Shown here piece by piece: positions 1,732 through 33,981 of a stretch of 34,721 bases of DNA (position 1 is the first letter of the stretch; every line of letters begins with the position of its first letter). The DNA is taken from IMG/VR virus record IMGVR_UViG_3300015360_000118, positions 1-34,721 of that record. One strand, 5' to 3'. The translations under genes were made by a program, and so were the position numbers. The notes below the pieces were generated by a model, which was given only the letters and a program-made list of their open reading frames with translations, was not told the origin of the DNA and made no database searches. Origin of the DNA: a virus.

Positions 1732-2370
1732 ATGAAACTCGAAATAAAAAACCACCCCGAAGATAAAGTTGGTATTTACGCCGTCTCCAAGAAGGCAAAG
1801 AGAGCTCATATACCACTGGCTTTTTTAATTACTCAAGTGTGTGACGACGCAGAAAAGGAGTGGGCAGACAAATACGGTATGAAGGCTTGGGCGATTTCTC
1901 ACGCACAACTCACAACGTCCCCAGAGCCCTTACGTATCTTTGTAGTACACCCGACATTGGCAGAAAAGTCACTCAATCCTTTAAACGCTGGCTTTCCTTC
2001 ACGGGCTATCTTTAATGCTCAAATCCTAGAAGCCGAGAAGGAACTTGTAATGTATAAAAAAGTTCGAAAGACGGTATTTAATGGCACAACAGGAAAGCGA
2101 GAGATACACGACAAGGTACCGGAGAAGTGCGCCACGCCCAATATCTTTGAACCCAAGGAAGGTTGTATGAGTTTTGTACACCGGAAACCAAAGAAGGTGC
2201 AGCGAGTCTTCCGTATTACCGTTCGATACTGGTATCCGCGTCGTATACTTGGCTTGTGGGTATTATGGCGCCGGACTGAAAAAGTAGAAGGCTTAAAGTC
2301 GCAGATATTCCAGCACGAAATACAGCACTTCGAAGGGGATAACATATACTTTAAGCACAATGAACGCTAA
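1732..2370 (+). CDS. Peptide-deformylase-like protein
   Basis: A 212-residue protein carrying the hallmarks of peptide deformylase, the metal enzyme that removes the formyl group from new proteins. Motif 2 is EGCMS at 143-147 (family EGCLS, metal ligand Cys145) and motif 3 is HEIQH at 195-199 (family HExDH, ligands His195 and His199, catalytic Glu196). Motif 1 (family GxGLAAxQ) is degenerate: around 52-59 only Gln59 is convincing, followed by LRIFVVHP as in true deformylases. The usual Asp of HExDH is Gln198. All metal ligands and the catalytic Glu remain, so activity is possible, but the degenerate first motif could mean altered specificity. It lies inside the terminase operon and overlaps the TerL start by 11 bases. 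Confidence 0.72.
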   Translation: MKLEIKNHPEDKVGIYAVSKKAKRAHIPLAFLITQVCDDAEKEWADKYGMKAWAISHAQLTTSPEPLRIFVVHPTLAEKSLNPLNAGFPSRAIFNAQILEAEKELVMYKKVRKTVFNGTTGKREIHDKVPEKCATPNIFEPKEGCMSFVHRKPKKVQRVFRITVRYWYPRRILGLWVLWRRTEKVEGLKSQIFQHEIQHFEGDNIYFKHNER

Positions 2371-3847
2371 AAAGCCCGACAACTACGACTTGCAGCTCCT
2401 AGACTACCGCCTAGAGAATGAAAAGTACCGATACTACGAACCTTCTGGAGTAGGAGAGGACTTTCTCAATGCGTTTGGAAGCAATGACTACTTTATACTC
2501 TTTCTTTCGGCGGCTAATGGAGTGGGCAAAACAGCACTGGCTACCAACATAATCGCAAATATATGCTTTTCTGGTAATAATCCTTGGTTCCGTGGTGGAT
2601 TGTTCGAGAAATGGCAGTATCTAAAGAAGGGACGTATTGTTACAGAATCAGACTTGGTAGAAAAGAACGTGGTAAACGAGCTTAAACAATGGCTCCCCCG
2701 CGGTCGCTACCAGACTAAAAAAGCTGGTAAGCACTTCGAATCCCGTTGGTTTACTGATACCGGCTTCGATTGGGACATTATGACCTATGACCAAGACCCT
2801 ATGCAGTTTGAAGGAATAACGCTCGGTTGGGCTTGGTTTGACGAGCCACCACCAGACCTATTGTTGAAAGCTACAATCTCTCGTATGCGTAAAGGTGGTA
2901 TCATTATTATCACAGCTACACCTATTTCCGGTTCAGCTCACTTGTACGATATGTTCGCCAATGGAGAAATGGAAGTGCAAGTACAGCTTCGAGAAGGAGA
3001 AGACCCTGTAACTGTAAAGCGCCGTGTTTACCACCTTACAGCGGACGTTGAAAGCGTTTGTAAGGAGCATGGTATCCGTGGACACTTGGAGCACCAACAT
3101 ATTGCTCAAATGGTCGCGGAGTATCCGGAAGACGAACGACAAGCTCGTGTATACGGTAAGTTTCAACACCTTGTAGGACTTGTGTTTAAAAAATGGAATA
3201 AACAAGTACACGTAATAGAACCGTTTGCGCTCGACCCGCGCGAGTGGTGCGTTTATCATTCCCTTGACCCGCACCCACGTAACCCAGACGCAGGTATTTG
3301 GCTGGCAGTAAATAGGCAAGGAACCAAGATAGTAGTTGATGAGTATTACAAAAACCCAGACACGGTGCAGGACTTGGGATATGATTTAAAGAAGAAGCAC
3401 TCTCTCTACCGTATGGAAACGCCGTATACCATTGACCCTAGTGCAACGATCGTCGACCAACATACAGAACGTTGTTTGGCTACTATGCTGGAGGACGAAG
3501 GACTTAATTACATTTCAGCGTCAAAGTCTCGAGCGGTAGCAGATAAGCGTATTGAGAACGCCTTGGACTACCGAGAAGTAAACGGACAAATGATAAAGCC
3601 GCCTGAATTGTACGTATTTTCTACTTGTCAGCGTTTCATTTACGAAGTGGAGCACTGGCGCTGGCAAGAGTGGAAGGGCAAAACCAGCTTTGATAAAAAC
3701 CGTAAGGAACAAAAGGTTGATAAAGACGACCACACTATTGAGTGTCTTGGACGTATTTTGTTTCAAGAGCCACAGTTTAGAGAAATGGTTACGCGACAAG
3801 TGCAAAGTGGAGTACAAAAAATGTCTAGCGATGACCCTTACTTTTAA
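2360..3847 (+). CDS. terL: Terminase large subunit (packaging ATPase and nuclease)
   Basis: A 495-residue protein that should drive DNA into the prohead and cut it. The N-terminal ATPase shows a Walker A loop SAANGVGKT at 50-58, a Walker B strand GWAWFDE ending at 162 and a TATPIS coupling motif at 185-190. The C-terminal RNase-H-like nuclease shows SLDPHPRNPDAG (Asp303), VVDEYY around 326-330 and a late KDDHTIECLGRIL that probably supplies the last acidic residue. The length is normal for the family. Its start overlaps the end of the deformylase-like gene. It is followed by a zinc-ribbon gene and then the 1 kb structured non-coding region. Confidence 0.95.
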   Translation: MNAKKPDNYDLQLLDYRLENEKYRYYEPSGVGEDFLNAFGSNDYFILFLSAANGVGKTALATNIIANICFSGNNPWFRGGLFEKWQYLKKGRIVTESDLVEKNVVNELKQWLPRGRYQTKKAGKHFESRWFTDTGFDWDIMTYDQDPMQFEGITLGWAWFDEPPPDLLLKATISRMRKGGIIIITATPISGSAHLYDMFANGEMEVQVQLREGEDPVTVKRRVYHLTADVESVCKEHGIRGHLEHQHIAQMVAEYPEDERQARVYGKFQHLVGLVFKKWNKQVHVIEPFALDPREWCVYHSLDPHPRNPDAGIWLAVNRQGTKIVVDEYYKNPDTVQDLGYDLKKKHSLYRMETPYTIDPSATIVDQHTERCLATMLEDEGLNYISASKSRAVADKRIENALDYREVNGQMIKPPELYVFSTCQRFIYEVEHWRWQEWKGKTSFDKNRKEQKVDKDDHTIECLGRILFQEPQFREMVTRQVQSGVQKMSSDDPYF

Positions 3848-3848
3848 T

Positions 3849-3989
3849 ATGGAACCGGACTTAATCATTTGTGAAGGTTGTGGTCGGAGTATTGAATTAC
3901 ACGAAGACTTCCAAGAATCAGATATGGGGATAAGCTTGTGTATAGAGTGTTGCCCAGACGGTATACCGAAAGACGACTGGCTGTTATAA
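3849..3989 (+). CDS. Small zinc-ribbon protein
   Basis: A 46-residue protein starting in a TAATATG junction right after TerL. It has CEGC at 8-11 and CIECC at 31-35, a two-knuckle pattern typical of a treble-clef or zinc-ribbon fold, joined by an acidic linker. The partner is unknown; such small zinc proteins in phages can bind nucleic acid or a host protein. Its last codons overlap an extended -10 promoter (TGTTATAAT at 3982-3990), so the 3' end of the gene serves as promoter for the structured region downstream. Confidence 0.65.
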   Translation: MEPDLIICEGCGRSIELHEDFQESDMGISLCIECCPDGIPKDDWLL

Positions 3990-3990
3990 T
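3982..3990 (+). promoter_or_regulatory. Extended -10 promoter candidate
   Basis: TGT followed by TATAAT at 3985-3990, overlapping the end of the zinc-ribbon gene. No convincing -35 hexamer is seen at the right distance, as is usual for extended -10 promoters. Initiation near 3997 would place the hairpin GTCGG/CCGAC (3997-4015) at the very 5' end of the RNA. The same 9-mer occurs at 4898 and 27630. Confidence 0.45.
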
Positions 3991-4059
3991 ATCCACGTCG
4001 GACTAGAGCACCGACAATTGCTAGGCAAAAGGGAATTGACCCCCTTTTCTTTCTTACTT

Positions 4060-4091
4060 GTAAACCCCCCAAGCGACCGCGGGGGGTTTAC
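4060..4091 (+). terminator. Perfect 11-bp GC-rich hairpin after the terminase operon
   Basis: GTAAACCCCCC at 4060-4070 pairs perfectly with 4081-4091 around a 10-base loop. A T-rich run lies upstream but no clear T-tract follows, so it may be a terminator of unusual form, an RNA-stabilising 3' end or a processing site. It lies about 70 bases after the last gene of the terminase operon. Confidence 0.5.
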
Positions 4092-4127
4092 TATATAAGC
4101 CGCTGGACTCCATAAAAGGTGACAATG

Positions 4128-4136
4128 TGGTATTAT
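4128..4136 (+). promoter_or_regulatory. Extended -10 promoter candidate for a small RNA
   Basis: TGG followed by TATTAT at 4131-4136, with a purine start region at about 4141-4143. No clear -35 is seen. A short structured stretch ending in an intrinsic terminator follows within 75 bases, which fits a free-standing small RNA gene. Confidence 0.4.
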
Positions 4137-4139
4137 AGA

Positions 4140-4210
4140 CATGGAGCCATTCTTGCCTTAAGCGGTAAGGAAACCATGGAAAGAGCACCACCAGCCGGGG
4201 TGCTCTTTTT
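4140..4210 (+). ncRNA. Candidate small RNA (about 70 nt) with its own terminator
   Basis: CATGG (4140-4144) pairs with CCATG (4174-4178) and encloses a hairpin CCTTA (4156-4160)/TAAGG (4166-4170). The terminator hairpin follows at once. An extended -10 lies just upstream. There is no open frame of note inside. The promoter-structure-terminator layout supports a small non-coding RNA gene; no known family is recognised and the function is unknown. Confidence 0.5.
4180..4210 (+). terminator. Rho-independent terminator
   Basis: AAAGAGCACC (4180-4189) pairs with GGTGCTCTTT (4199-4208) around a 9-base loop and runs into a T tract ending at 4210. This is a textbook intrinsic terminator, placed 40 bases downstream of the small-RNA start region. 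Confidence 0.8.
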
Positions 4211-4240
4211 GTTCTTAACCTTATCTTCATACGCTTTGTT

Positions 4241-4246
4241 TATAAT
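4241..4246 (+). promoter_or_regulatory. -10 hexamer TATAAT ahead of the second structured RNA
   Basis: A perfect TATAAT follows the preceding terminator by 30 bases. I see no good -35 hexamer and the extended TG is one base out of place, so the call rests on the perfect -10 and on the structured RNA with a terminator that follows. Confidence 0.35.
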
Positions 4247-4251
4247 GGGCG

Positions 4252-4458
4252 CTAGGACTGTAACAAATATCCACAGTCTACGGCTATACAGATAGAGCCT
4301 TAAACATGCTATTATGTTCGGGTATGGTTTTGAAACATCAACAATTGAATACTTGCGCAGCTAACCCAACCTCGGAAGACCATACAATTTTCCTTGGGTT
4401 GGCGTCGCTAGTATTGAACAAAAACGTTGTAAGGGCACTCTTTTTGAGTGTCTTTTTT
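4252..4458 (+). ncRNA. Candidate structured RNA (about 205 nt) ending in a terminator
   Basis: A chain of helices: GACTGT/ACAGTC (4256-4278), GGCTAT with ATAGAGCC (4282-4299, one bulge), AACAT/ATGTT (4303-4318), then a long imperfect hairpin in which AATACT (4348-4353) pairs with AGTATT (4410-4415), GCG with CGC, and GCTAACCCAA (4360-4369) with TTGGGTTGGC (4394-4403). An intrinsic terminator closes it at 4434-4458. A 72-codon open frame crosses it but has no start context and shows no family, so RNA is the better reading. The sequence TGCTATTAT at 4307-4315 also resembles an extended -10. Family unknown. Confidence 0.55.
4434..4458 (+). terminator. Rho-independent terminator
   Basis: GGCACTC (4434-4440) pairs with GAGTGTC (4446-4452, one G-U pair) around a TTTTT loop and is followed by six T residues at 4453-4458. 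It ends the second structured RNA. Confidence 0.8.
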
Positions 4459-4466
4459 CGTGTCAC

Positions 4467-4853
4467 ATTGCAACTCGGGCTTCTTGCAATTAAAAAACCT
4501 AGTCCGTTTCCAAATAGTAATTAGTTTTGTGTAGGAACCATAACGACTCGGGAGATCGTTGCTCTCAATACCGGTCATTATTGAGTCCTACGCAAAGCTC
4601 ATTACACAAGCTCTTGTTCAGATACATATGCGAAAGCAGGGAAAACGAGTGTCCGACTTCTCGCCCTGCCGTTGAATATGTACCGGAACAAGGGAACTCT
4701 AAAGATAAATAAAAAGTAAGTTTCGCGTCGTTTTGTTTCTAAGACAATAGCATTAAAGAAACTGGAAGGGGTTTATCTTTGTAGAGTACTGACACCAACT
4801 AAATAACCGCGCAGCAATAGCCCTTCAAGGGTAGAAGTCGGGCTGTACCTTAT
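4467..4853 (+). ncRNA. Candidate large ornate RNA with a three-way junction
   Basis: Nearly continuous helices. ATTGCAA/TTGCAAT forms 4467-4490. A three-way junction is closed by 11 bp (4526-4536 with 4586-4596) and holds arms AACGA/TCGTT (4542-4560) and CTCAATA/TATTGAG (4564-4585). A rod stacks CTCTTGTTC/GAACAAGGG (4611-4619 with 4686-4694), ACATAT/ATATGT, GCAGGG/CCCTGC and CGAG/CTCG. A second rod pairs CTCT-AAAGATAAA (4697-4709) with TTTATCTTT (4772-4780) plus AGAG, and encloses AGTTTC/GAAACT. A last part has CAGC/GCTG (4812-4845) around CCCT/AGGG. Short open frames here show no protein family. The style resembles large phage RNAs such as GOLLD and ROOL, but membership is not shown. Confidence 0.6.
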
Positions 4854-4897
4854 TAACAGAAAAAGGGTTTACAGTTTGTATTAAGAGTGCTGCCTTG

Positions 4898-4906
4898 TGT
4901 TATAAT
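4898..4906 (+). promoter_or_regulatory. Extended -10 promoter for the morphogenesis operon
   Basis: TGT followed by TATAAT at 4901-4906. A TTGTAT at 4876-4881 would be a -35 with a 19-bp spacer, longer than ideal. It lies 85 bases before the portal start and after the structured RNA block, so it probably drives portal and the virion genes. Confidence 0.5.
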
Positions 4907-4990
4907 TTTAGATGAAGAAACCAAAAGTAAGAAAGAGTCGCCAACAATTCCTTCGCTCAAAGGAAACATTACTGGCGATATTTTTTATAA

Positions 4991-6934
4991 ATGGCTACTG
5001 CTACAACTAAAAAGAAGTCCGACAAGTACGAAGTTCCAGAAGAAATTATGGAGCTTGAAGACGACTCTGTAGAAGAAAAGACAGAACGTCCGGACTTTAC
5101 TTCTCTTATAAAGCAATCTGCTTCCGAGTGGGAGCAAGGTTGGTGGTTTATGAAGCCAAAGTGGGACGAGTGGGCACTCCGACTCAAACTATACAACAAC
5201 CAAAAGCGCGACAAAGAAAGTGTAGGTGATACTACGCTATTTTCTGTATTTCAAACGATACTTGCGGCGCTTTACGACGACCGACTCGCTGCTACTTTTT
5301 CTCCTCGAGAGATTGGAGACGACGAAATTGCCGAAAACCTCGACTTGGTAGCTGATTATGACTACGATTTAATGGAAAAGGACATTATCGACTACGAGTG
5401 GGACTTTGAAGCTGCCTTTTTTGGTCGTGGCTTACTTTGTGTCATGGACTTTGACGAAAGTACCCTTACGCCTTCTCCGTATGTATGGAACAGAATGGTG
5501 ACAGTACGTGACCCAGAAGCCGCAAGTGTAAACGGCGATCGTGCTGGACGGGGAGCTTCGCGCTTTCTTTACCGTGAAATCCGAATGACCAAAGAACAGC
5601 TTGCAAACAATGACCAATATTTCGAATACGAAAGCCTAAAAGGTGCTGGAAACAAGAATGATACCAAGAGCCCACTTGACCAATACATGCGGGACACTGC
5701 CGACGCCGCGGGACTAGGAGACGTGCAAAAGTTCGCTAATATCGACGGTGATAACGCAAGTCTTCGACTACGAGAAGGTTTTACCCGCTGGAACGGCAAG
5801 CTTTGCTTCGTTACTATTGGAGACAATGGGAAAAAAGTTATCCGGTACCAAGAACTGGAGCGAAACACCATACCAATTGTAGACCGTGTACTATTTCCGA
5901 TTCCAAACTCTTTTGACTCTGTTTCTGTTCCGGACTTGGTGGAAGACAAGCAACGAGCTAGAGCGGTAGCGCTTAATCTTTCTCTTAAGGGAGTAAAAGC
6001 CAACCTACACCCAATGTACTTATTTGATAAGAACAAAATTGACGAGCGACAAGACTTTAATTTTGCTTTTAACAAGTTCATTCCAGTGCAAGGAAATCCA
6101 GCCGGTGCCGTAGTTCCAATGACTAAAGACTATATTAAACAAGACGTAAGCTTTATTATGGAGACGCTATCAGCAAGCGCAGAACGAGCTACAGGTACAC
6201 CAGACATTAAACAAGGCGCTAACCCAGACGGAAAGACCACAGCTACTCGAGACACACTTGTAGCACAAGGCTCGGACAGTCGTTATGGACTCGCTGCCCG
6301 TATTTTTGGTTGGAGCGAGCGACGATTCTGGCAAGAGTACTATAACCACCTTAAAGAGAACATGGACGATGGTATACACGAGAAAATGGTACGTGTCGTA
6401 GGCGCCCTTGGTGCTGCTTGGCGACCGTTTAAGAAATCCGACCTTATAGTACCAGCCGAACACGCAGACCCTAATATTAAAATTGAAAGTAAAGCAGTTT
6501 CAGATACAAGGCGCTTTAACGAAGCTAAACTGTTTCGAGACTACCTTACCCTTGCAGCAACCGACCCAACTGCTCAAATACGTTCTGGTATGCGGTATTA
6601 CGGCAAGCTTATTGGTATGAAGCAAGACTTGGTAGAGCAAATCTACCCACCTACAATAGACGAACTTCGTGCCGAGGAGGAAAATATGCTCATTTATGAA
6701 GGAACCAAGGCTATTGTACTTCCAGACGACGATCATTATTTACACCTTCAAATCCACAACAAGCTTCCGGACTCTCCAACAAAGACCGCTCACCTAAACG
6801 CACACAAACGGGCGCTTATTCTCCAAAAAACAAATCCCGAAATGGTACCGCTTCCTACTGCTCAAGGTGCGGTGCCGGTTGATAACCTAACAGCGCCAGC
6901 GCAAGAAGGAGGACGTAAGCTGCCAGTCTTGTAA
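4991..6934 (+). CDS. Portal protein (P22/T7-like)
   Basis: A 647-residue protein that should form the dodecameric ring at the capsid vertex through which DNA enters and leaves. After an acidic N-terminus (1-45) come portal-like helices around 83-105 (FSVFQTILAALYDDR) and 135-150 (YEWDFEAAFFGRGLL), a beta-rich wing, and from about residue 399 RATGTPDIKQG leading into long stem and crown helices (FGWSERRFWQEYYNHL). Length and position after TerL and before the scaffold fit the short-tailed-phage portal family. The ATG has no Shine-Dalgarno sequence, and a TTTTTT run lies just upstream. The family is inferred from pattern and gene order. Confidence 0.88.
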   Translation: MATATTKKKSDKYEVPEEIMELEDDSVEEKTERPDFTSLIKQSASEWEQGWWFMKPKWDEWALRLKLYNNQKRDKESVGDTTLFSVFQTILAALYDDRLAATFSPREIGDDEIAENLDLVADYDYDLMEKDIIDYEWDFEAAFFGRGLLCVMDFDESTLTPSPYVWNRMVTVRDPEAASVNGDRAGRGASRFLYREIRMTKEQLANNDQYFEYESLKGAGNKNDTKSPLDQYMRDTADAAGLGDVQKFANIDGDNASLRLREGFTRWNGKLCFVTIGDNGKKVIRYQELERNTIPIVDRVLFPIPNSFDSVSVPDLVEDKQRARAVALNLSLKGVKANLHPMYLFDKNKIDERQDFNFAFNKFIPVQGNPAGAVVPMTKDYIKQDVSFIMETLSASAERATGTPDIKQGANPDGKTTATRDTLVAQGSDSRYGLAARIFGWSERRFWQEYYNHLKENMDDGIHEKMVRVVGALGAAWRPFKKSDLIVPAEHADPNIKIESKAVSDTRRFNEAKLFRDYLTLAATDPTAQIRSGMRYYGKLIGMKQDLVEQIYPPTIDELRAEEENMLIYEGTKAIVLPDDDHYLHLQIHNKLPDSPTKTAHLNAHKRALILQKTNPEMVPLPTAQGAVPVDNLTAPAQEGGRKLPVL

Positions 6935-8287: not shown

Positions 8288-9253
8288 ATGTCAACAACTA
8301 CACGAACGCAAATCCCAGCAGAAGTAAATAACTTCTACTCACGGACATTGCTTATGCGAGCTGTTCCACTTTTCCTTCACACACGATATGGACAAGTGCG
8401 CGACATTCCAATGAAGGCTGGTAGCTCAATAATTAAGTTCCGTCGATACGGAAACCTTACTTCAGCTACAACACCATTAACAGAAGGCGTAACTCCAGCT
8501 GGCTCACAAATGAGCGTTTCTGATATTTCCGCCACCGTTGCACAGTACGGAGACTTTGTTACCTACAGTGATGTAGTAGACTACGAGTCACAAGACGCGA
8601 TTCTTACCGAGTTTGCGGAAGTACTTGGCGACCAAGCTGGAGACACTCTCGACAAATTGGCTCGAGACGTGCTTGCAGCCGGTACAACAGTTACCTACGT
8701 TGGACAAGTAGCCCGAAACGCCATAGCTGCAGCAAACCTTATTACTGCTACAGAAGTGCGTAAAATGGTGCGAACCTTGAAAAATAACAAGGCAAAGCGA
8801 GTAACCCGCATGATCGCGGCTTCTACAGGTATTGCAACCGAACCAGTCTCACAAGCATACATTGGTATTGTTTCACCAGACACTACCTTTGACTTACAAG
8901 ACGAAGTCGGTTGGGTTCCAGTAGAGAAGTATTCTGCAGCCATGAGTATCATGGACGGAGAAGTAGGAAAGATAAATGACGTACGCTTTGTTGAAACACC
9001 AAATGCAAAGGTTTTTGCAGCAGCCGGTGCTTCAAGTATCGACGTACACGGTACCTTGATTATGGGTATGGAAGCGTATGGAGTTTCACGAATTAGTGGT
9101 GCTGCACTGCAAAACATTGTAAAGCCACTTGGTTCTGGAGGTACAGAAGACGCTTTGAACCAACGAGGAACTACCGGCTGGAAGGCAACTTTCGTCGCTA
9201 AAATCCTTAACGACGACTTCCTTGGTCGTATTGAACACGCTGTAACAAGCTAG
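8288..9253 (+). CDS. Major capsid protein, N4-gp56 family
   Basis: A 321-residue protein with the pattern of the N4-gp56 capsid family (HK97-like fold): LLMRAVPLFLHTRYGQVRDI near 21-40, KAGSSIIKFRRYGNL near 43-57, ATTPLTEGVTPAG near 60-72 and VAQYGDFVTYSDV near 84-96. The C-terminal half holds GTLIMGMEAYGVSRI and ends with GRIEHAVTS. It should form the icosahedral shell. It follows the scaffold by 31 bases, with an A-rich leader and no Shine-Dalgarno sequence. The family is recognised from conserved sequence blocks. Confidence 0.93.
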   Translation: MSTTTRTQIPAEVNNFYSRTLLMRAVPLFLHTRYGQVRDIPMKAGSSIIKFRRYGNLTSATTPLTEGVTPAGSQMSVSDISATVAQYGDFVTYSDVVDYESQDAILTEFAEVLGDQAGDTLDKLARDVLAAGTTVTYVGQVARNAIAAANLITATEVRKMVRTLKNNKAKRVTRMIAASTGIATEPVSQAYIGIVSPDTTFDLQDEVGWVPVEKYSAAMSIMDGEVGKINDVRFVETPNAKVFAAAGASSIDVHGTLIMGMEAYGVSRISGAALQNIVKPLGSGGTEDALNQRGTTGWKATFVAKILNDDFLGRIEHAVTS

Positions 9254-18858: not shown

Positions 18859-21800
18859 ATGGCAACTTGGGACGAGTTAAACAAAACTTACAGTTCAGCA
18901 AAACCAGAGGACGAAAAAAAGAAAGACGAAAAAATCAGCGTCAGTTCTTCTTCTTGGGACGAGCTAAATAAGTGGGGAGACACACAACCCAAAGCCGAAG
19001 TTCAAACTCAAACTCCAGTTGCTACTACACCAACACAGCCAAAGAAACAAAACGACGGCAATATACTTAAGTCTTACTCCAAGGGAGTCCAAGAGGTTGT
19101 AGGGACAAGTGCTGCGTTTGGCGCTTCCGGAGTCATGCGACTTTTTGGAGGATTGCAAGAAGTCGCATTAAAAGCAATCGAACCAGCCAACATTGCAGCG
19201 GCACGTATTGGACAAGGGCTTTATAAAGGACTTGGACTTATTACTCCGGACAACGGCAAATTGTCTAAAGTTGGAGACGACTTTTATACACAAATGCGAA
19301 GCGGGTACAACCAACTACAGGAAGCTTCTTTTGAAGTAAACCGTTCTGCGACAAACATTGGTAATAGAAGTCGAGATACCTTATTAGACAAGACTGGCTT
19401 TGACGAATATAAAAAGGACAACAGTGGAAAAGACTTTTCTTTCAGCGATCTAAAAGACCCTAAATTCTGGCTTTACGACGTATACGGCACAACGGTAGAG
19501 AACGCACCAATAATGGCGGCTACCTTTGTAGTAGGTAAAGGAGCGGGAATGGCGACACAGGGCGCTGGAGTGCTTGCATGGCTGGCAGGAACCGGAGGAG
19601 CGACTACCTTTTCTTTGGGTATGAACGCTTCTATTGAGTCCCAAGCCGCTTATGACACCGCAATGAAGTCCGGAAAGTCGGAGACGCAAGCATTAGTCGA
19701 AGCCGAGCGCGTATTTAACCGTAACTTTACTGCAAACACTTTGTCTGAAACGCTCCAAATGGCGCTACTATTTATGCCACAAGGAGATAAAGTTAAAGCA
19801 ACTTTACCACTTTGGAAGTCTTTAATTAAAAATGCTAGCAAAATTATAGCCGCTGGTGGTATTGAAGTACTCCAAGAGCGCGGAGAAAATGCAATTCAAG
19901 AAGGTGCTAGTAAAGAAGACTTTGATTGGGCAGGTTTTGGTTCAGCTCTAGCAGAAAAAAATGTAACAAAGTCTGATTTTATTTCCTTTGTACTTGGTGC
20001 TGGTATGCAAGGAGTTGGTAACGTTTTTGTTGATAACAAACAAATTTCAGAAGAAGCTTACGACCAAGCAAATGAAATGGCAGCGAAACTTTGGGACGGC
20101 GGGGACACTCCACCACCAACCGGAGAGGCAGCTATTGCTTACCTTGAACAACAGCGCATAGACAACCCAGAAGGGCTTATTGCCGTGTACAAAAATACCG
20201 TGCAAAGCCGGAAAAAGTTTGTGGAAGACGCCAAAGCCTTAACCGCCACAAATCAAGACGGAGCTATCCAATCATTGCCAACGATCACCGCAGAAGACGG
20301 CACCGACCTTGGACGAATTGAAATAAAGAAAAGCGGGGACGGCTTTGTTTCTCGTTTTGTTGGTAATGCTGGAGAAGCAGGAGCACAAACCGACTTTGAC
20401 TACTCAAATGTATTTAATACTCAAGAGGACGCAGCGCAACGAGCTACAGACGCACTTATTATATGGGCAGAACAGGAACGAACTAATGCAAACAATAGTC
20501 CGGTGACACAAAGCCGTCTTGAGGAGCTTATTGCTAATGCCCGTGTAAATAAAAAAGAAGCGCCAATAGAACTGCCAAAAAAAGAACCCGAGTTACCTAG
20601 TGGCTTATTACAAGCTCAACAGATTTTACAACTACTTCAAGAGCAAGGAGTGTCCGGAGCCGACGTTAGTGCCGCTATAAGTAATACTCGCGGGCAAGAA
20701 AGTCTTGGAGTAACTCAATACGAAGGAGCCAATGTATTGCATGAACTCAAAAAAATACAGGAGTCCGGAGGTAAACAAAAGCCAGCGCCACGAACAGAGA
20801 AAGAAACTAAAACCGAAGTTAGTAAGCCTACAGAAACGAAAGCGAACCAGAAAAAGAAAGTCCTACCGAGTACCAAGAAAAAAGCCCGTGCGGACTTCGA
20901 GAAGTCAGCCGACGACGTCAAACCAGAAGAATTAGTAACTATTCAAAAAAGTGTTAATAACGGCAAAGCTAAACTTAATAAACCAAAAACCCAAAAAGAT
21001 CAAGTGAAAGAAGTTATTGACCAAAAAGGTACCGCTTCAATTAAAGATATTAAAGAAACTGAAAAACAAAAAGCCAAAGAAGCAAAGATAATAACAAAAG
21101 AAAATTCTACAAAACCAAAAACGCCCAAAATCCTTACCATAACAGCCAAACCAGAAGACATAGACTTTGAACTTGCAAAACGTGCTCACGAAGGCACCAG
21201 CTTTTACCCAGAAAAACGTGCCGCGTCTCACCAGCAAAGCTACGTGGAAATGGTAAACGACTTTGCACTCGAGCTCGAGCCACTAGCAACCAGTGAAGCT
21301 CAACAGAAAATTGCACAAAACGCAGTTGACCAGTACGCAGGGAAGTTACTTAATGGCTATAAAGCTTACCTAGAAGCCAAAAGTCGCACTATTTCTCCAA
21401 TGATAAGTGGTGCCGGTAATTTCCCCGTAGAACGCAATCGTAAGCGCCTACAAACCCAAATGAAACGGTGGGACGAGGTTGTAGAAATACAAGAAAAGGC
21501 AATAAAGTATACAAAGAAAGCGCTTAAAGAGCAGTCAGTTGTAGACCGTGGAGGAGCCAAAATAGTAGCTCAAGACGAACTTGCCCAAGCAAAAGCAAGT
21601 CTCGAAATGATGAAGTCAGCCAATAAAATCATTAAAAACATTAAGCTTAATGACGAACAAAAGGTAGTGGAGCTTGTAAAACTTCCAGCGATCAGCACAG
21701 ACAGCGCCCGAGAATTACTAAAGCCAGACTATGCCGGACGGCAGGGCTTTGCTTCTTTTAGTCTTACAAGTGTACGTGGAAAGATTAAGCGTATGGAAGG

Positions 21801-24800
21801 AGCCGTGGTAAGTAAAGAGAAAAACGCTCAAGAGGAAGACCGTGTGCTTTTAGAGACTGCCGGTATGCGTATTGAAGAACACCCCCAAGACGAACGTATC
21901 CGCATTTACTTCGAAGGCAAGCCAGACGCAGAAATGAGAAACAAACTCAAGAGTAACGGTTGGAAATACTCACCACTTAATAGTACTTGGCAACGCAAAA
22001 ATACACCGAACGGACGATACAACGTCAAGCAGCTTTTTGGAGAATTACAAACTATGGAGAAGGCAGTGGAGGTAGAAATTGAGAATGTTGCGCCAGTTAA
22101 TCAGAGTGCCAAGCTTAAAATTGTTACTGTAAAAGGTGAAGATATTGAACAATCCTTTTTAGAAGAAAGCGACCGTGATGTAGAAAGAATGAACACATTA
22201 CTAGACAATGCTGGCGTTACTGATGTAACAGTAAAAAGTGCAGTAGTAAGAAAAGACGGTTCTTTTTCCGCTAATATGTCAGACGGTAAAGTGTGGGAAG
22301 ATACACGTTTTGCCGATATTGTTGCAAGCAAAAAACCAGAACTTGATAAAGTTAAACTGATTGAAGACAACCGCAAAGCCTTTAAAAGAAACTACGCAAA
22401 ACTTTCAAAAGCAGGTACTAAATTTAAGAGCACCACAAAGGGAGACTTCTTAAGACCAAAAACCAAGGTTGGAAAAAAAGACCTTAAGGACTTTGTCGAA
22501 GTTGAAGGCGAAATGATATTTACAGTTATTGTTGCCGATTCCATACTTGAAGGGAAGTTAAATGCAGGAAGTGGCAAGTACCACATATACCCATTACACG
22601 CACCAGAGGGGACTAAATACTTATATCGTAAAACTGATACCGGAGAGACAAGACTATTTCCAAGCGCACTCGGACTCGTAGAAGAAAACCTTGAAGAAGG
22701 GCAACTAATTGAGTTTAATATTGAGGACATAAAGCAAGCTGGCACCTATTACAACGCTATAAACCAAGCTGGTGACACTGTTGCTTTTCAGGGTATTCCA
22801 ACCGGAGAGTCTCTCAAAAAAACAAATGGAAAACTACCACTAAAAAACCCACAGACCGGAAAACTGTTTGGTTCCCTTTCACCCGACGAGTGGTTCACTG
22901 TTAATGTTGATCGTGTAATCCCAGACTCAAACTCAATGTCAGACGCAATTGCAGACTTACGAAACGGGCAAAAGTCATTTACAGGACTTCCAATTCTTGT
23001 TCGAGATAACGGCGAAGGGCAATATGAAATAATTGACGGGCACCACCGTTTTGCACAAGCACTATTTGTCGACGAGCAGCAGCAAGTGGTGGTAATGACA
23101 GACGAAGTTAAATACAAAAACCTTAACCGAACAGAATTAGACCAGACCGAGCAAGGGAATTACTCAAGTGGCGGACTTAATGCTTCTGTAGCCTTTGACG
23201 TGCCCATAATTGACGACAAAGGTACTGCAGACCCACGTTTTGACCAAGGTTCTGCGCCACTACCGGCTACAATGGCTCATTTGGACGAAATAAACACCGT
23301 GGAGATACCAGAATTAGTTGATATTGTACGCGAATTATCCGGCAAAGTTCCAGAAATTAAAAAGGCTTTCCGTAAAGTAGGAAAGGGAGGAGACTACAAC
23401 GCTACTTACAACCGTATCCGCGTCCGTGCTGATATGTTTCGCAAGAATAACCTACATAACGGAGCAAAAGTACTGGCTCACGAGCTCGGACACATGATTG
23501 ACGCAGTACCAGACGGAACACTTAACCGCGGAAATCTTATTGGAAGGCTTTTATCTTTGCGTGACTTTATGGGCAGCACTGGTAACCCTACCAGTGGGGA
23601 GCGAGTGACGATAGAACAACGACGAGAAGTAAAGACCAACACTATTAAGGAAGTACAAAAAGAGTTTGGCTATAAAACTCAAAAAGAAGTGCTTGCCGAC
23701 GCTAAAGCAAAAATAGTAATTAAGGAGCGTTTCAAGAAGACCATGGAAATGGTGCTAGAAAAGGACGGCTTTATTCGAGACGAAGTTATCCGGCAAGAAT
23801 TACTCGCAGCAACTCGTTTCTGGACACCTTACAATCCCGCAATGGTACCGGAGTCATACCGAGCGTATCGTGAAAGTGCGGTCGAGCTTTATGCCGAAGC
23901 ATTATCAATGCTTTATATTTCACCACGAAACCTTGCCCGTATTGCACCAACCTTCTACAAGCAATTTTTTGCAAACCTAGATAGTAAACCAACCGTGCGA
24001 GACGCTTACTTTGAAGTGCAAAGTCTACTAGCTGGCGACCGTGACGCAGTAACAGCCCGACGACGTGCCGGAGTTCAGCAAATGTTTAAAGAAGGCGAAC
24101 TGAAAGCAATGGAGCTACACAAAAAAAAGCTCGAAGAAAACAAGTCACAGAAACGAGAAATATGGAAACACCTTAAGCATAAGGTTATTGATAAAAACTT
24201 TCAGATTATCGACCGTGTAAAAGAGCTTGAAAAGAAGGGCACCAGACTAAACCCAGACGAAAACCCTGTATTCTTCCTTGAAGAACGAAATTATGTAGGT
24301 GGAAAAATTAAGGCTATTTTTGAAAAAGAAATTAACCCAATTTATCAAACCCTTACCGACAATGAAATATCTTGGGAGGACTTTGGAGAAGTCCTATTTT
24401 ACGAGCGTGTAGCTTCTGGCGATCGTTCTAATTTTGCAAACCCACGGGGTATTACACCGGACGCAGCAGTAGAACTAATTGCAGAAATGCGCGTCCAGCT
24501 TGGAGTAAAGCGCTGGCTGTTACTACGAGAGCAACTGGCTAACTTCCGTGCAGTGTCTAAACGTATAACTAAAATGGCTTATGAAGCCGGACTTTACAAA
24601 AAGGAAATGTACATAAAAATGAAGAAAAACCCAGCGTACGCAACTTTCCAAGTGCTCGACTTCCTAGAAGAAGGTATGACGTCTCGCATTTATAAGTCAG
24701 TCGGTACCTTCCGAGACATTGCCAATCCTGCAGACTCGACCTTGCTTAAAATGATAACTACTATTAAAGCAGCCGAGCGAAACGTAGTTACGCAAAAAAC

Positions 24801-26757
24801 TGTAGAGTTTTTGAAAGAAAACTACCCCGAAGATATTGAAGAAGCCCAATATACCGGTAGTAAAAAAGGACGATTCCCATTACCACCAAAGGGCAGTAAA
24901 AAGGAGCTCAAGCTTATTACTGTATTTGAAAAAGGAAACCTTAAGGGCTACTACGTAGACCCGTACATTGCCGAGACTATTAACAATCAGTCTTACGGAC
25001 AAAATGCGCCATTGGTACCGACTCTACGCTTCTTTAACGGTACTTTCTTTCGACCGCTTTTTATTCAGTTTAACCTCGGCTTTCAGTCGTTTAACTTACT
25101 ACGTGACTTCTGGCGTTTCTGGAAAACAATGCCAGACGCAACAATCTTAAGTTCAATGAAGGCGTATCACAAAGCCGGAAAAGTGGCTCGTTTCCGTGCC
25201 TTTGGTATACCTAAAAACCCAAGCCCAGCCGACCGAGAAGCCATTGCTCTTTACCAGAGAGCAGAAGAAGCCGGTATTCTTTCCCTCACCTTTAATGACA
25301 TTATTTCCGGACGCAACGCCGAAGATAAACAAATTGAAAAGATACTTGCAGATAGTGGTATTAAAGAATTTCAACCAGAACCAAAGTATGAGGACGTGCC
25401 GCGCTTTGCAAAGCCGGTTGTAGAAGTACTTAACAAAGTTGGTATTCTAAAAGTTGCCAGTAAAACGCTAGGCTTTATTGAAAACCTTGGTAACTACATT
25501 GAAACACTACCTAAAGCTGCCGCCGTGTACGAACTTAAAGGTACCGAAGCCGAGTTTCTTACTCGAGAACAAACAAGCTTTATCCGACGTAAAGTAGGTT
25601 CGCCGGACTTTCTTGCCGGAGGAACATACAAGCCAGCCACAAATGAAATATTCCTATTTTCTAACGCGATTATTCAGGGCATTAGATCAGACATAGAAGT
25701 AGCGACCGACCCAACAACCCGCTCCGGATACTGGTGGAAGACAGCAAAACTGAACTTTCTACCTAAAATTATGATGTATGCGGCACTCATGGGACTTTTT
25801 GGGGACGAAGTAAAAGAAATTATGGAAAGTGCAAGCGAGTACGACCGAACCAACTATACTATTATTCCGCTTGGAAAAGACGAGTTTGGAAAAGCTGTAT
25901 ACTTTCGCCTTCCTTCCGACGAAACAGGACGCTTCCTTGGCGCTACTTTCTGGAAAGTATTATCAGCTCCAACTAATGAGCAGCCAATTGGCTCGGATAT
26001 TATGCAAATAATTTCATACACTGGTGGACAAATTCCGTCGGTTACTCCAGTGGTGGAGATAATTAGTGCCACAGCTCAATACATGAGTGGTAAAAACCCT
26101 TACGACTCGTTCCGAGGACGCAATGTACTATCAGATACGTTATTCCAAGCCGGAGGTATGGAAGCCCATAAAGCTTTTCTTGGCTGGCAGTTCCAGCAAC
26201 TCGGAGGTGGTATTTTTTACAAGTTCTACCACGAAGGAACACCGCCAGAGAAAAAGAGTCTTGTCGAAAAAACCTTTAATTTACCGCTTCTTGGTAATGT
26301 TATAGGACGCTTTGTGCGAGTTAGTGACTATGGAAAGCTAGAAGCATTGCGAGAAATTGAAAACAAAGTAAAGACCGAAGAAGCCCAAGCTTCACTTGAA
26401 AAACGCTCAATAGTAAACACTTACACAAAACAAGCGCAAGAAAACGGAGAACTTACAGAAAACCTAGCAAATCAAATGGTACAAGAATATTTTGGAGGAG
26501 AACCAAATGCTTCACAGTATCAAGAAGCAGACCGCTTGAAAGACCGGCTCCGACTCGAAGTAATACGCGGTTCATCAGAAGCCGAGGTGGTAGCCGTTAT
26601 TGACGCAAATACTAATAATCAAAAGGCGGCAATCTTACTGGAGATCGGTAAGACGTCCACTCAAGAGGAGTTTGACAAGCTAATTTCAGACCTACTAAAC
26701 GCCGGTATTATTACCGACGGAACACTTGAAAAGCTCCAAGAGCGTTCACAGCAATAA
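18859..26757 (+). CDS. Giant polyvalent virion protein (ParB-like, metallopeptidase and LPD-type domains)
   Basis: A 2632-residue protein, probably carried in the head and ejected with DNA. It opens with two WDELNK motifs (4-9, 33-38). A glycine/alanine-rich hydrophobic stretch lies near 214-260. About 775-860 (AHEGTSFYPEKRAASHQ, later GAGNFPVERNRKR) and 1020-1050 (MRNKLKSNGWKYSPLNSTWQ) resemble paired modules of conjugative-element proteins. A ParB/sulfiredoxin-like domain around 1345-1410 has DGHHR at 1393-1397. A zinc-peptidase motif HELGH at 1541-1545 is followed by ELYAEA at 1676-1681, a likely third ligand. From 2065, RPLFIQFNLGF and NLLRDFWRFWK recall an LPD38-type domain. Together this is the 'large polyvalent protein' style; enzymatic activity is inferred only. 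Confidence 0.75.
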   Translation: MATWDELNKTYSSAKPEDEKKKDEKISVSSSSWDELNKWGDTQPKAEVQTQTPVATTPTQPKKQNDGNILKSYSKGVQEVVGTSAAFGASGVMRLFGGLQEVALKAIEPANIAAARIGQGLYKGLGLITPDNGKLSKVGDDFYTQMRSGYNQLQEASFEVNRSATNIGNRSRDTLLDKTGFDEYKKDNSGKDFSFSDLKDPKFWLYDVYGTTVENAPIMAATFVVGKGAGMATQGAGVLAWLAGTGGATTFSLGMNASIESQAAYDTAMKSGKSETQALVEAERVFNRNFTANTLSETLQMALLFMPQGDKVKATLPLWKSLIKNASKIIAAGGIEVLQERGENAIQEGASKEDFDWAGFGSALAEKNVTKSDFISFVLGAGMQGVGNVFVDNKQISEEAYDQANEMAAKLWDGGDTPPPTGEAAIAYLEQQRIDNPEGLIAVYKNTVQSRKKFVEDAKALTATNQDGAIQSLPTITAEDGTDLGRIEIKKSGDGFVSRFVGNAGEAGAQTDFDYSNVFNTQEDAAQRATDALIIWAEQERTNANNSPVTQSRLEELIANARVNKKEAPIELPKKEPELPSGLLQAQQILQLLQEQGVSGADVSAAISNTRGQESLGVTQYEGANVLHELKKIQESGGKQKPAPRTEKETKTEVSKPTETKANQKKKVLPSTKKKARADFEKSADDVKPEELVTIQKSVNNGKAKLNKPKTQKDQVKEVIDQKGTASIKDIKETEKQKAKEAKIITKENSTKPKTPKILTITAKPEDIDFELAKRAHEGTSFYPEKRAASHQQSYVEMVNDFALELEPLATSEAQQKIAQNAVDQYAGKLLNGYKAYLEAKSRTISPMISGAGNFPVERNRKRLQTQMKRWDEVVEIQEKAIKYTKKALKEQSVVDRGGAKIVAQDELAQAKASLEMMKSANKIIKNIKLNDEQKVVELVKLPAISTDSARELLKPDYAGRQGFASFSLTSVRGKIKRMEGAVVSKEKNAQEEDRVLLETAGMRIEEHPQDERIRIYFEGKPDAEMRNKLKSNGWKYSPLNSTWQRKNTPNGRYNVKQLFGELQTMEKAVEVEIENVAPVNQSAKLKIVTVKGEDIEQSFLEESDRDVERMNTLLDNAGVTDVTVKSAVVRKDGSFSANMSDGKVWEDTRFADIVASKKPELDKVKLIEDNRKAFKRNYAKLSKAGTKFKSTTKGDFLRPKTKVGKKDLKDFVEVEGEMIFTVIVADSILEGKLNAGSGKYHIYPLHAPEGTKYLYRKTDTGETRLFPSALGLVEENLEEGQLIEFNIEDIKQAGTYYNAINQAGDTVAFQGIPTGESLKKTNGKLPLKNPQTGKLFGSLSPDEWFTVNVDRVIPDSNSMSDAIADLRNGQKSFTGLPILVRDNGEGQYEIIDGHHRFAQALFVDEQQQVVVMTDEVKYKNLNRTELDQTEQGNYSSGGLNASVAFDVPIIDDKGTADPRFDQGSAPLPATMAHLDEINTVEIPELVDIVRELSGKVPEIKKAFRKVGKGGDYNATYNRIRVRADMFRKNNLHNGAKVLAHELGHMIDAVPDGTLNRGNLIGRLLSLRDFMGSTGNPTSGERVTIEQRREVKTNTIKEVQKEFGYKTQKEVLADAKAKIVIKERFKKTMEMVLEKDGFIRDEVIRQELLAATRFWTPYNPAMVPESYRAYRESAVELYAEALSMLYISPRNLARIAPTFYKQFFANLDSKPTVRDAYFEVQSLLAGDRDAVTARRRAGVQQMFKEGELKAMELHKKKLEENKSQKREIWKHLKHKVIDKNFQIIDRVKELEKKGTRLNPDENPVFFLEERNYVGGKIKAIFEKEINPIYQTLTDNEISWEDFGEVLFYERVASGDRSNFANPRGITPDAAVELIAEMRVQLGVKRWLLLREQLANFRAVSKRITKMAYEAGLYKKEMYIKMKKNPAYATFQVLDFLEEGMTSRIYKSVGTFRDIANPADSTLLKMITTIKAAERNVVTQKTVEFLKENYPEDIEEAQYTGSKKGRFPLPPKGSKKELKLITVFEKGNLKGYYVDPYIAETINNQSYGQNAPLVPTLRFFNGTFFRPLFIQFNLGFQSFNLLRDFWRFWKTMPDATILSSMKAYHKAGKVARFRAFGIPKNPSPADREAIALYQRAEEAGILSLTFNDIISGRNAEDKQIEKILADSGIKEFQPEPKYEDVPRFAKPVVEVLNKVGILKVASKTLGFIENLGNYIETLPKAAAVYELKGTEAEFLTREQTSFIRRKVGSPDFLAGGTYKPATNEIFLFSNAIIQGIRSDIEVATDPTTRSGYWWKTAKLNFLPKIMMYAALMGLFGDEVKEIMESASEYDRTNYTIIPLGKDEFGKAVYFRLPSDETGRFLGATFWKVLSAPTNEQPIGSDIMQIISYTGGQIPSVTPVVEIISATAQYMSGKNPYDSFRGRNVLSDTLFQAGGMEAHKAFLGWQFQQLGGGIFYKFYHEGTPPEKKSLVEKTFNLPLLGNVIGRFVRVSDYGKLEALREIENKVKTEEAQASLEKRSIVNTYTKQAQENGELTENLANQMVQEYFGGEPNASQYQEADRLKDRLRLEVIRGSSEAEVVAVIDANTNNQKAAILLEIGKTSTQEEFDKLISDLLNAGIITDGTLEKLQERSQQ

Positions 26758-28821: not shown

Positions 28822-28937
28822 AAAGGTGTAAACGAGGATTGGCTCTTATAGCCATAATCGTTTGCATACCAATATATATATGGTTTGCACTTATAATCTA
28901 CATAGAAGTCGAGAAAGGAGGTGATCTAGTATCTTGA
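28818..28937 (+). CDS. Tiny membrane protein
   Basis: A 39-residue protein coupled to the preceding gene by an ATGA overlap. Basic start (MKRCKRG), then a hydrophobic segment at about 8-28 (LALIAIIVCIPIYIWFALIIY), then an acidic tail with EKGGDLVS. The codons for the tail contain the 15-base complement of the 16S rRNA 3' end, so this short gene doubles as carrier of that element. No family is recognised. Coupling and membrane character support it being real. Confidence 0.5.
   Translation: MKRCKRGLALIAIIVCIPIYIWFALIIYIEVEKGGDLVS
28912..28926 (+). promoter_or_regulatory. Full-length complement of the 16S rRNA 3' tail
   Basis: AGAAAGGAGGTGATC is the perfect complement of a 16S 3' end reading GATCACCTCCTTTCT, far longer than a normal Shine-Dalgarno match. 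The only start in range is a TTG at 28934 that opens a 24-codon frame running through the terminator. Nine of its bases (28912-28920) can also pair with CTCCTTTCT at 28977-28985, the descending arm of that terminator, giving a competing structure. Confidence 0.6.
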
Positions 28938-28938
28938 C

Positions 28939-28986
28939 TGCTAGGAACAGACTAGCAAGGAGCCTACTAACACGGGCTCCTTTCTT
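28939..28986 (+). terminator. Tandem hairpins ending in a probable terminator
   Basis: TGCTAG/CTAGCA forms 28939-28957. Next to it AAGGAGCC (28957-28964) pairs with GGCTCCTT (28975-28982) around a 10-base loop, followed by TCTTATT. The T tract is imperfect but the 8-bp GC-rich stem supports termination. It separates the lysis side from the promoter at 29003. Confidence 0.65.
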
Positions 28987-29002
28987 ATTATCCACATTTT
29001 AC

Positions 29003-29031
29003 TTGTAGGCAAGCGGGCAAGCGTGTATAAT
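29003..29031 (+). promoter_or_regulatory. Promoter of the recombination operon with tandem repeat spacer
   Basis: TTGTAG (29003-29008) and TATAAT (29026-29031) lie 17 bp apart. The spacer holds two direct copies of GGCAAGCG (29008-29015 and 29016-29023). Spacing and -10 are ideal, and the -35 keeps TTG. The same arrangement recurs at 33797. Repeats lying between the two hexamers are well placed for a repressor to block RNA polymerase. Confidence 0.8.
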
Positions 29032-29076
29032 AACCGAGGTCGATAACAAATTATTGGAGGTATAAAAATTGAAATT

Positions 29077-29235
29077 GTGAGCAAAACAAAAAAAAGCAAA
29101 AAAGAAATGTCTGAGTATATGAGCAATCTAGGTCGCAAAGGCGGCAAGAAAACAGCAGAGCGTGGAAAGGAATATTTCTCAAAGATTGGCAAGAAAGGGT
29201 ACGATTCCCTAGCAAAAAAGAAAAGCTCTCAATAA
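29077..29235 (+). CDS. KGG-motif protein
   Basis: A 52-residue basic protein (from GTG) with two KGG-type repeats: LGRKGGKKTAERGKEYFSKIG and KKGYDSL. These occur in small stress-type and phage proteins thought to bind nucleic acid. GGAGG at 29056-29060 is 16 bases before the GTG but 7 bases before an in-frame ATT at 29068, so a rare ATT start giving three more residues is possible. It is the first gene after the promoter at 29003, so it should be made early. Confidence 0.65.
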   Translation: MSKTKKSKKEMSEYMSNLGRKGGKKTAERGKEYFSKIGKKGYDSLAKKKSSQ

Positions 29236-29242
29236 TACGCAT

Positions 29243-29419
29243 ATGAACCTAGCAAATAGTCCAATTACGTTTTTGTCACTGTTCCGAAAATACGGTGGCA
29301 ATATTAAAAACGCACACGTGCTGGAGCTACGTGCAGCAGCACAAGCACTTCCACCGCACCAGAACGCTTTACAAGCTTTCTCCGCAGCGGGTAAGCAGTA
29401 CAGACGTGAGCAAAAATAA
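29243..29419 (+). CDS. Hypothetical small basic protein
   Basis: A 58-residue protein, largely helical (VLELRAAAQALPPHQNALQAF) with a basic end (GKQYRREQK). It starts 7 bases after the KGG gene and is followed within 10 bases by the next gene, so it is in the early operon. No family is recognised. Intact frame and tight spacing support it. Confidence 0.5.
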   Translation: MNLANSPITFLSLFRKYGGNIKNAHVLELRAAAQALPPHQNALQAFSAAGKQYRREQK

Positions 29420-33476: not shown

Positions 33477-33478
33477 AT

Positions 33479-33625
33479 ATGAGTTGGAAAGAATATTACG
33501 CCGGAGTGCGGTTTATAAAAAACACTTCCGGCACAGGAGGAGAAGCCGTACACCGACTTAAAGAGTGGAAAAAACATGCTCTACCGTTAGTAAATCAGAA
33601 GCTTAATCAAGAGCAATATGTTTGA
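33479..33625 (+). CDS. Hypothetical small basic protein
   Basis: A 48-residue protein starting two bases after the zinc-finger gene (TAAATATG). Basic and helical in its second half (AVHRLKEWKKHALPLVNQKL). Its last codons overlap the start of the next gene by eight bases. No family is recognised. Tight packing on both sides supports it. Confidence 0.5.
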   Translation: MSWKEYYAGVRFIKNTSGTGGEAVHRLKEWKKHALPLVNQKLNQEQYV

Positions 33626-33794
33626 GTTTCTCATGCCTATTTTTACGACATTTCTCGTAACAACAACCGGCTTTACTGTAGACCTAGAAGAAGGGCACAA
33701 GTATGAATTTATACGTACCTCGACCAGTACAGCAGCCGTCTACGTCGACCAGAAGCTCCAGTATACGCTCACAGAAGGAGTTATAAACAGGTAG
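33618..33794 (+). CDS. Hypothetical small exported or structural protein
   Basis: A 58-residue protein. The first 20 residues are moderately hydrophobic (FEFLMPIFTTFLVTTTGF) and could be a weak signal sequence. The rest is strand-rich (YEFIRTSTSTAAVYVDQKLQYTL). It ends three bases before the promoter at 33797, closing the recombination operon. No family is recognised. Confidence 0.45.
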   Translation: MFEFLMPIFTTFLVTTTGFTVDLEEGHKYEFIRTSTSTAAVYVDQKLQYTLTEGVINR

Positions 33795-33796
33795 TC

Positions 33797-33825
33797 TTGT
33801 AGGCAAGCGGGCAAGCGTGTATAAT
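33797..33825 (+). promoter_or_regulatory. Promoter of the regulator operon with tandem repeat spacer
   Basis: TTGTAG (33797-33802) and TATAAT (33820-33825), 17 bp apart, with GGCAAGCG twice between them. From the -35 through the -10 it is identical to the promoter at 29003. The surrounding sequence differs, so the element itself is conserved. Initiation near 33832 would place a hairpin at the 5' end. Confidence 0.8.
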
Positions 33826-33830
33826 GTAAC

Positions 33831-33849
33831 TAGTTTCAGTAAGAAACTA
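33831..33849 (+). other. 5'-terminal RNA hairpin
   Basis: TAGTTTC (33831-33837) pairs with GAAACTA (33843-33849) around AGTAA. It starts about six bases after the -10 hexamer, at the expected transcript start, where it would protect the RNA 5' end. A comparable hairpin with a 5-base loop follows the repeat at 26899. Confidence 0.5.
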
Positions 33850-33980: not shown

Positions 33981-33981
33981 T

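Follow-up and report, generated by a model that had tools for sequence, protein, structure and literature searches.

A conserved, structured non-coding locus between the TerL and portal genes of a virus genome, and the recurrence of one of its domains in two unrelated phages

The interval between TerL and portal

The virus record IMGVR_UViG_3300015360_000118 is 34.7 kb long and was analysed in full (34,721 nt; hereafter the window). Its TerL and portal genes are separated by a short ORF and a block of 1 kb (3990-4990) in which no convincing gene was found, the largest ORFs being of 58-72 aa and without support. The genes around this block, and the features in it that lie outside the two conserved RNAs described below, are the following:

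184-816: TerS, an ordinary small terminase (phrog_51)
2360-3847: TerL
3849-3989, + strand: 46-aa ORF with two CxxC motifs, zinc-ribbon-like as read from its sequence, forming the left edge of the non-coding block
3982-3990, + strand: extended -10 promoter candidate TGTTATAAT, supported by sequence only
4027-4051, + strand: weak terminator-like hairpin, with related sequence in L009 and L010
4060-4091, strand unassigned: perfect 11-bp palindromic hairpin GTAAACCCCCC/GGGGGGTTTAC
4128-4213, + strand: small hairpin RNA candidate, with an extended -10 TGGTATTAT at 4128 and two stable hairpins, the second being a terminator (4180-4213)
4898-4990, + strand: extended -10 TGTTATAAT and leader of the downstream operon, from sequence (hairpin z = -3.55)
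4991-6934: portal
8288-9253: major head protein

The 46-aa ORF has no PHROG match, and CxxC..CxxC ORFs are found at the matching place in relatives L006-L008. The GC content of the non-coding block (42%) is similar to that of the remainder of the window, and no tRNA was found in the window.

On the + strand, 3990-4990 had a minimum free energy of -326.1 kcal/mol (z = -9.3 relative to dinucleotide shuffles at -252.2 ± 8.0 kcal/mol), and z was -5.7 on the opposite strand. Ranked by z, the ten most stable 200-nt segments of the whole window include those at 4501, 4901, 4601, 4301 and 4101. The + strand of the window has 15 TGnTAnnWT sites, and four of these are in the 1 kb block, as extended -10 sites at 3982, 4128, 4307 and 4898; canonical two-hexamer (sigma-70) promoters were neither enriched there nor above chance. 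The terminator scanner found two terminators (4027-4048 and 4431-4455) where 1.1 were expected, so that their number is not above chance by itself; the one at 4431-4458, however, is conserved in nine of nine relatives. A third terminator, AAAGAGCACC..GGTGCTCTTT at 4180-4213, is clear from its sequence and was not among the scanner's two. Together with the hairpin upstream of it, it folds with z = -5.0, and conservation in relatives of the small hairpin RNA candidate that it would end (4128-4213) is not clear. The palindromic hairpin at 4060-4091 has altered yet complementary arms in L009 (GTAAAACCGCC/GGCGGTTTTAC). A terminator-like hairpin (GUCGCCA 4937-4943 / UGGCGAU 4973-4979) with U6 behind it lies immediately ahead of the portal start, and relatives retain it with changes. 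An 8-nt complementarity of ~3999 with ~4498 was dropped, as it is not kept in L009.

An earlier note, made without database searches, had described the block as a non-coding gap of dense RNA structure, and both parts of that claim held, the second in view of z = -9.3 and of the compensatory changes presented below. Its three extended -10 candidates (3982, 4128 and 4898) also held, and it had missed the conserved one at 4307, before RNA A. It had also counted two intrinsic terminators, and the scanner gave two as well, a number that alone does not exceed chance.

Searches of IMG/VR with TerL and portal gave about 100 loci, and in the closest relatives the TerL-portal interval spans 1.0-2.3 kb. 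Alignment of these intervals revealed two conserved blocks on the + strand, which will be named RNA A and RNA B. The family is small: it counts about nine TerL-portal relatives, from a few lineages, and two further phages. The best identity of TerL to any INPHARED sequence was 33%, and a TerL profile search of GTDB genomes returned a single relative at 31%; the host is therefore not identified.

Elsewhere in the window, 1732-2370 encodes a peptide deformylase-like protein (phrog_2890), and a 2632-aa ORF (18859-26757) gave no match in Pfam. Two other long stretches lack a convincing forward gene (33477-34088 and 28832-29294), and two 200-nt segments, at 28401 and 28801, are likewise more stable than their shuffles.

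RNA A, a small pseudoknotted RNA with promoter and terminator sequences

RNA A comprises the following elements, all on the + strand:

4307-4315: extended -10 promoter TGCTATTAT, with an extended -10-like element in all nine relatives
4320-4458: RNA A, ~139 nt, with its 5′ end within a pseudoknot and a terminator at its end; present in nine relatives
4322-4385: pseudoknot helix GUAUGG 4322-4327 / CCAUAC 4380-4385
4348-4415: main 20-bp helix (arms 4348-4369 and 4394-4415), with 10 pairs changed on both sides
4431-4458: intrinsic terminator, with hairpin and U6 conserved

Across the nine relatives, 95.5% of the 243 pair cells hold standard pairs, and 12 of the 27 pairs show changes on both sides. 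None of 500 shuffles equalled the real pairing or covariation scores, and pairing fell to 35-41% when the partners were slid. The pseudoknot itself is part of this pattern, its last pair occurring as G-C, A-U, U-G or C-G and another of its pairs as U-A or A-U. The covariance model built for RNA A (R1) scored 91-100 bits in all nine relatives. A search for the RNA A pattern in other contexts gave one new contig, which failed the covariance model.

In nine of nine relatives, a reading frame beginning with a conserved AUG near the 5′ end continues for 33 codons or more without a stop, the other two frames being mostly interrupted. In three pairwise comparisons, however, the changed codons were 42 non-synonymous and 2 synonymous, the frame shifts downstream between lineages and the stop positions scatter. 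RNA A is thus not conserved as a protein, and the coding interpretation was rejected. What is conserved is the structure of a small RNA, together with its promoter and terminator sequences; its transcription is inferred.

RNA B, a larger multi-helix RNA

RNA B lies directly behind the U-run of RNA A. Its elements, again on the + strand, are:

4460-4860: RNA B, a large multi-helix RNA
4460-4795: P1, long-range closing helix GUGUC 4460-4464 / GACAC 4791-4795, spanning ~330 nt
4476-4506: P2 hairpin (arms 4476-4481 and 4501-4506)
4517-4605: P3, a long hairpin with 13 pairs changed on both sides
4613-4692: P4 domain, a two-part helix with the (nearly) invariant internal-loop strand CAUAUGCGAAAGC.., common to two other phage lineages
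4696-4787: P5 helix enclosing P6 (P6 arms 4719-4724 and 4758-4763)

The core closed by P1 (4460-4795) is followed by a conserved 3′ tail to ~4860, for a total length of ~340-400 nt. RNAalifold and single-sequence folds from five lineages converge on P1, P2, P3, P4 and P5/P6, with some single folds missing helices; P5 is present in most of them. P1 occurs among relatives as GUGUC/GACAC, GUAAC/GUUAU and GUAGC/GCUAC, and one G-U pair of P2 is invariant. The P6 sequences AGUUUC, GGUUUC, ACUUCG, GUUCUC and AUUCUC keep their pairing in all five cases. It should be noted that support for P5/P6 rests on hand registration, the automatic alignment being poor there.

In the alignment of RNA B (A5), 59 pairs have 97.3% of their cells paired and 24 of them show changes on both sides. 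Not one of 500 shuffles was as good, slid partners were only 34-39% paired, and single-sequence folding gave z = -2.7 to -4.1 in five relatives. No coding signature was found in the RNA A and RNA B comparisons. RNA B lacks a separate promoter candidate, and its expression would therefore need read-through of the conserved terminator, or processing.

The P4 domain in two unrelated phages

P4 was searched for with a DNA pattern first and then with a covariance model (R2), whose best false match scored 17 bits. The domain was found in two further phages. L033, a record of 38.4 kb, scored 92.1 bits; it came up initially with the DNA pattern, and the sequences from which R2 was built include it. 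L147, a 42.8 kb record with terminal repeats, lies outside the training set of the model and scored 76.9 bits (E = 2e-19). In the P4 alignment that includes L147 and L033 (A9), 99% of the cells are paired and 8 pairs are changed on both sides, with pairing and covariation scores above all 500 shuffles and all slid controls. The P4 model scored 94.5 bits on the + strand and 38.7 bits on the - strand.

No TerL is detectable with the window's TerL in the L033 and L147 records. One weak match is the only protein in common between the window and L033, and L033 and L147 share three; none of the proteins shared among the phages compared could be identified as an RNA partner. The setting of P4 also differs, being a non-coding stretch behind lysis genes in L033 and a 0.8 kb gap on the early-gene strand in L147. 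This suggests that the 80-nt P4, recurring almost unchanged at other genome positions in two unrelated phages, is a separate RNA working part that phages exchange. Possibly, the RNA around P4 in L033 is only short.

The invariance of CAUAUGCGAAAGC is partly a product of the search, since the first patterns required it; a third pattern without this requirement gave no further member. Looser patterns matched dozens of contigs, among which L147 was the sole new member to pass the covariance model.

Shine-Dalgarno-like motifs precede 1 of 28 gene starts in the window and 1 of 32 in G002, no more often than at random, and their enrichment is absent in all three P4 phages (window, G002 and G001). 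This fits a shared type of host, as yet unidentified. Patescibacteria were considered because of the genes without Shine-Dalgarno motifs, and this assignment was not established.

Two further features were observed around L147. Tandem short repeats (GGAGCGCA-type units) lie within a coding region at L147 327-633, and a 575-aa ORF at L160 14436-16163, beside the terminase genes of the L147 phage, appears GroEL chaperonin-like from its N-terminal sequence, an inference made from sequence alone.

Modularity and variation of the locus

In L004 and L011, RNA A is kept and P4 is absent, with a replacement module directly after RNA A instead of RNA B. By eye, L011 retains a P3-like hairpin enclosed by GUGUG/CACAC, and L004, L011 and L013 have another block in common, with a helix GUCAC/GUGAC or GCCAC/GUGGC. 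The gene downstream of the locus in L011 differs from portal. A conserved structured block GUACCGUCACA..GGGUGAC stands in for P4-P6 in L004 (with GCCAC/GUGGC), at ~5040-5150 in L011 and at ~9967-10080 in L013.

At either end of the L033 record lies a version of one and the same non-coding locus (L114 1-936 and L033 8829-9775): the flanks are 82% and 96% identical, the inserts of ~560 nt between them are unrelated, and P4 is in only one of the two. The two versions may represent strain variants or a tandem pair. The L114 version contains two interleaved long inverted repeats (304-317/375-388 and 339-354/394-409). Such interleaved repeats, which recall the RNA A pseudoknot, also occur upstream of the P4 RNA of L147, and the layout in L033 is similar. 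The loops in L033 and L147 seem too short for the two helices to form together, so these could be alternative states.

More distant TerL/portal relatives have small ORFs or tRNAs in the interval, and neither R1 nor R2 matched them. tRNA genes lie between TerL and portal in L012 (9125-9210), L020 (3502-3573 and 3647-3718) and L056 (1869-4060), in all of which RNA A and RNA B are absent; the interval is therefore a general site for RNA genes.

Two other insertions were seen among the relatives. An Endonuclease VII gene (PF02945) lies inside the TerL-portal interval of L013 (10241-10627), and TerL of L010 is interrupted in frame after residue 234 by ~970 bp (~2391-3358) with a LAGLIDADG match (PF14528), which is most likely an intein.

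Discussion

The comparisons demonstrate that structure, strand, and promoter and terminator sequences are conserved at this locus, and that the locus is modular and independent of TerL and portal. A transcript of the + strand is argued for by the better folding of that strand, by the P4 scores of 94.5 versus 38.7 bits and by the invariant G-U pair of P2; likewise, action at the RNA level is supported by the asymmetry between strands, by the promoter and terminator, and by the covariation. We lean, without great confidence, towards the interpretation that the block is a non-coding RNA locus representing a new modular family of trans-acting phage RNAs, similar in kind to GOLLD and ROOL and not a member of either. 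Both transcription and action in trans are inferred.

In such a model, transcription from the extended -10 at 4307 would give RNA A, of ~139 nt and pseudoknotted, ending at the 4458 terminator. RNA B, of ~340-400 nt, may arise by read-through beyond this terminator or by processing, and both would act as RNA, in trans. P4 would be a functional module in its own right, which unrelated phages hand on to one another and join to various RNA scaffolds; we would guess that its nearly invariant internal loop most likely binds some factor of host or phage origin in infected cells, whose identity is not known.

Among other explanations, the one deserving most attention is that RNA A and RNA B form the 5′ region of the portal operon, a cis-acting leader or attenuator controlling transcription or translation with the terminators as switches. 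Both RNAs are indeed on the portal strand directly upstream of portal, and the conserved terminator-like hairpin and U-run just before the portal start, along with the promoter candidate at 4898, would suit such a role. However, P4 is away from portal in L033 and L147, the next downstream gene in L011 is a different one, and a promoter candidate belonging to portal itself follows RNA B, so that we consider a leader unlikely. A packaging RNA or signal, be it similar to the phi29 pRNA or a structured cos/pac region, would account for the position between TerL and portal across the whole TerL-portal family. It is nevertheless very improbable given that no Rfam pRNA model matched, that the small terminase is an ordinary one (phrog_51), that the P4 RNA is beside neither TerL nor portal in L033 and L147, and that more distant TerL/portal relatives are unmatched by either model. 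With P4 present in three unrelated settings, neither packaging nor control of portal in cis is likely to be its main function.

We have very little confidence in the remaining alternatives. An element working as DNA (a cruciform, origin, recombination or attachment site) would explain the long palindromic arms, some of them perfect (4060-4091), and the recombinogenic appearance of the L033 locus, but not the strand asymmetry in folding and model scores, the invariant G-U pair of P2 or the conserved promoter and U-run. That RNA A encodes a leader peptide of at least 33 aa from the conserved AUG is favoured by the frame open in nine of nine relatives, the other two being mostly closed, and is contradicted by the 42 non-synonymous versus 2 synonymous changes, by the frame shifts and scattered stops, and by substitutions that follow base pairing. 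Finally, the modular exchange and the Endonuclease VII gene in the L013 interval could point to a degraded mobile element, for example an intron or an element using a guide RNA; against this very doubtful origin, no Rfam intron or other match was obtained in any carrying locus, and no nuclease or reverse transcriptase ORF lies beside RNA A/B in the window.

Returning to the trans-acting RNA family that we favour, a bolder version of it is conceivable. P4 could be a mobile binding module that phages of one host group carry on various scaffolds, capturing or misleading a conserved host factor, e.g. a ribosomal, transcription or defence component; the locus would then be a swappable RNA-based counter-host cassette. 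We consider this version, taken as a whole, rather unlikely.

Only a small number of large phage RNA classes have been described, and what they do is an open question. RNA A and RNA B have strong comparative support, are absent from Rfam and are small enough to study. Furthermore, an 80-nt P4 with a nearly invariant loop in three otherwise unrelated phages constitutes a specific bait for pull-down, which makes it testable what partners large phage RNAs have, and the locus shows phages exchanging and replacing RNA domains as modules.

Comparison with known RNA families

None of the 4227 families of Rfam 15 reached its gathering cut-off in the window or in eight relatives. GOLLD was not matched in the gap even at E ≤ 10, the ROOL and pRNA models did not match either, and permissive E-values gave chance matches only. 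Likewise, no Rfam match reached the cut-off in L147, the end of L033 or the start of L114, and no homologue of the RNAs was found in INPHARED phages or PLSDB plasmids, where the short matches were to a terminator or due to chance. Membership of the RNA A/RNA B family defined here rests on a match to R1 and R2 with compensatory pairs, and this condition is fulfilled.

The earlier note had seen in the block a group of structured RNAs, small and large, and had been unable to assign it to GOLLD, ROOL or pRNA. Both points are supported, by the small RNA A and the large multi-helix RNA B with their many compensatory changes, and by the lack of any Rfam family match. It had also stated that its reading would be refuted, among other things, by a lack of compensatory changes in homologous gaps or by conserved coding signatures; such changes are present there, and no protein-coding signature was found. 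Its precedent of a packaging RNA was not supported, P4 being away from TerL and portal in other phages. The locus does resemble phi29-type pRNA, a component of the packaging motor, as a phage RNA near packaging genes, and differs from it in having no Rfam match, in the ordinary small terminase and in the P4 copies away from packaging genes in L033 and L147.

GOLLD and ROOL, two large RNAs encoded by phages, assemble into RNA cages and are frequently located close to tRNA islands; their function is not known (PMC12286853). The cage of ROOL is an RNA-only octamer, that of GOLLD is multimeric, and GOLLD is expressed more strongly at phage lysis. As in GOLLD, a variable part is combined here with a more conserved module in a heavily structured, large phage RNA whose function is unknown; GOLLD is often near tRNA islands (PMC12286853), and tRNAs occur in the TerL-portal interval of distant relatives that lack RNA A and RNA B, the window itself having none. 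However, many GOLLD members exceed 800 nt, whereas RNA B is ~340-400 nt and even RNA A and RNA B together are ~540 nt; moreover, there is no Rfam match, and RNA A is a separate pseudoknotted RNA. With ROOL, an ornate RNA encoded by phages and prophages, the locus shares the unknown function (PMC12286853), and it differs in lacking an Rfam match, in being smaller than the 659-nt ROOL of PMC12286853 and in sitting between TerL and portal. ROOL has multiple pseudoknots in one large RNA; here, one pseudoknot is supported so far, in RNA A and not in RNA B. In view of the smaller size and the absence of a model match, RNA A and RNA B are not filed as members of GOLLD or ROOL. RNA A taken alone has the layout of phage small RNAs with their own promoter and intrinsic terminator, from which it is set apart by its conserved 5′-terminal pseudoknot and by the presence, directly behind it, of RNA B or of the replacement module of L004 and L011.
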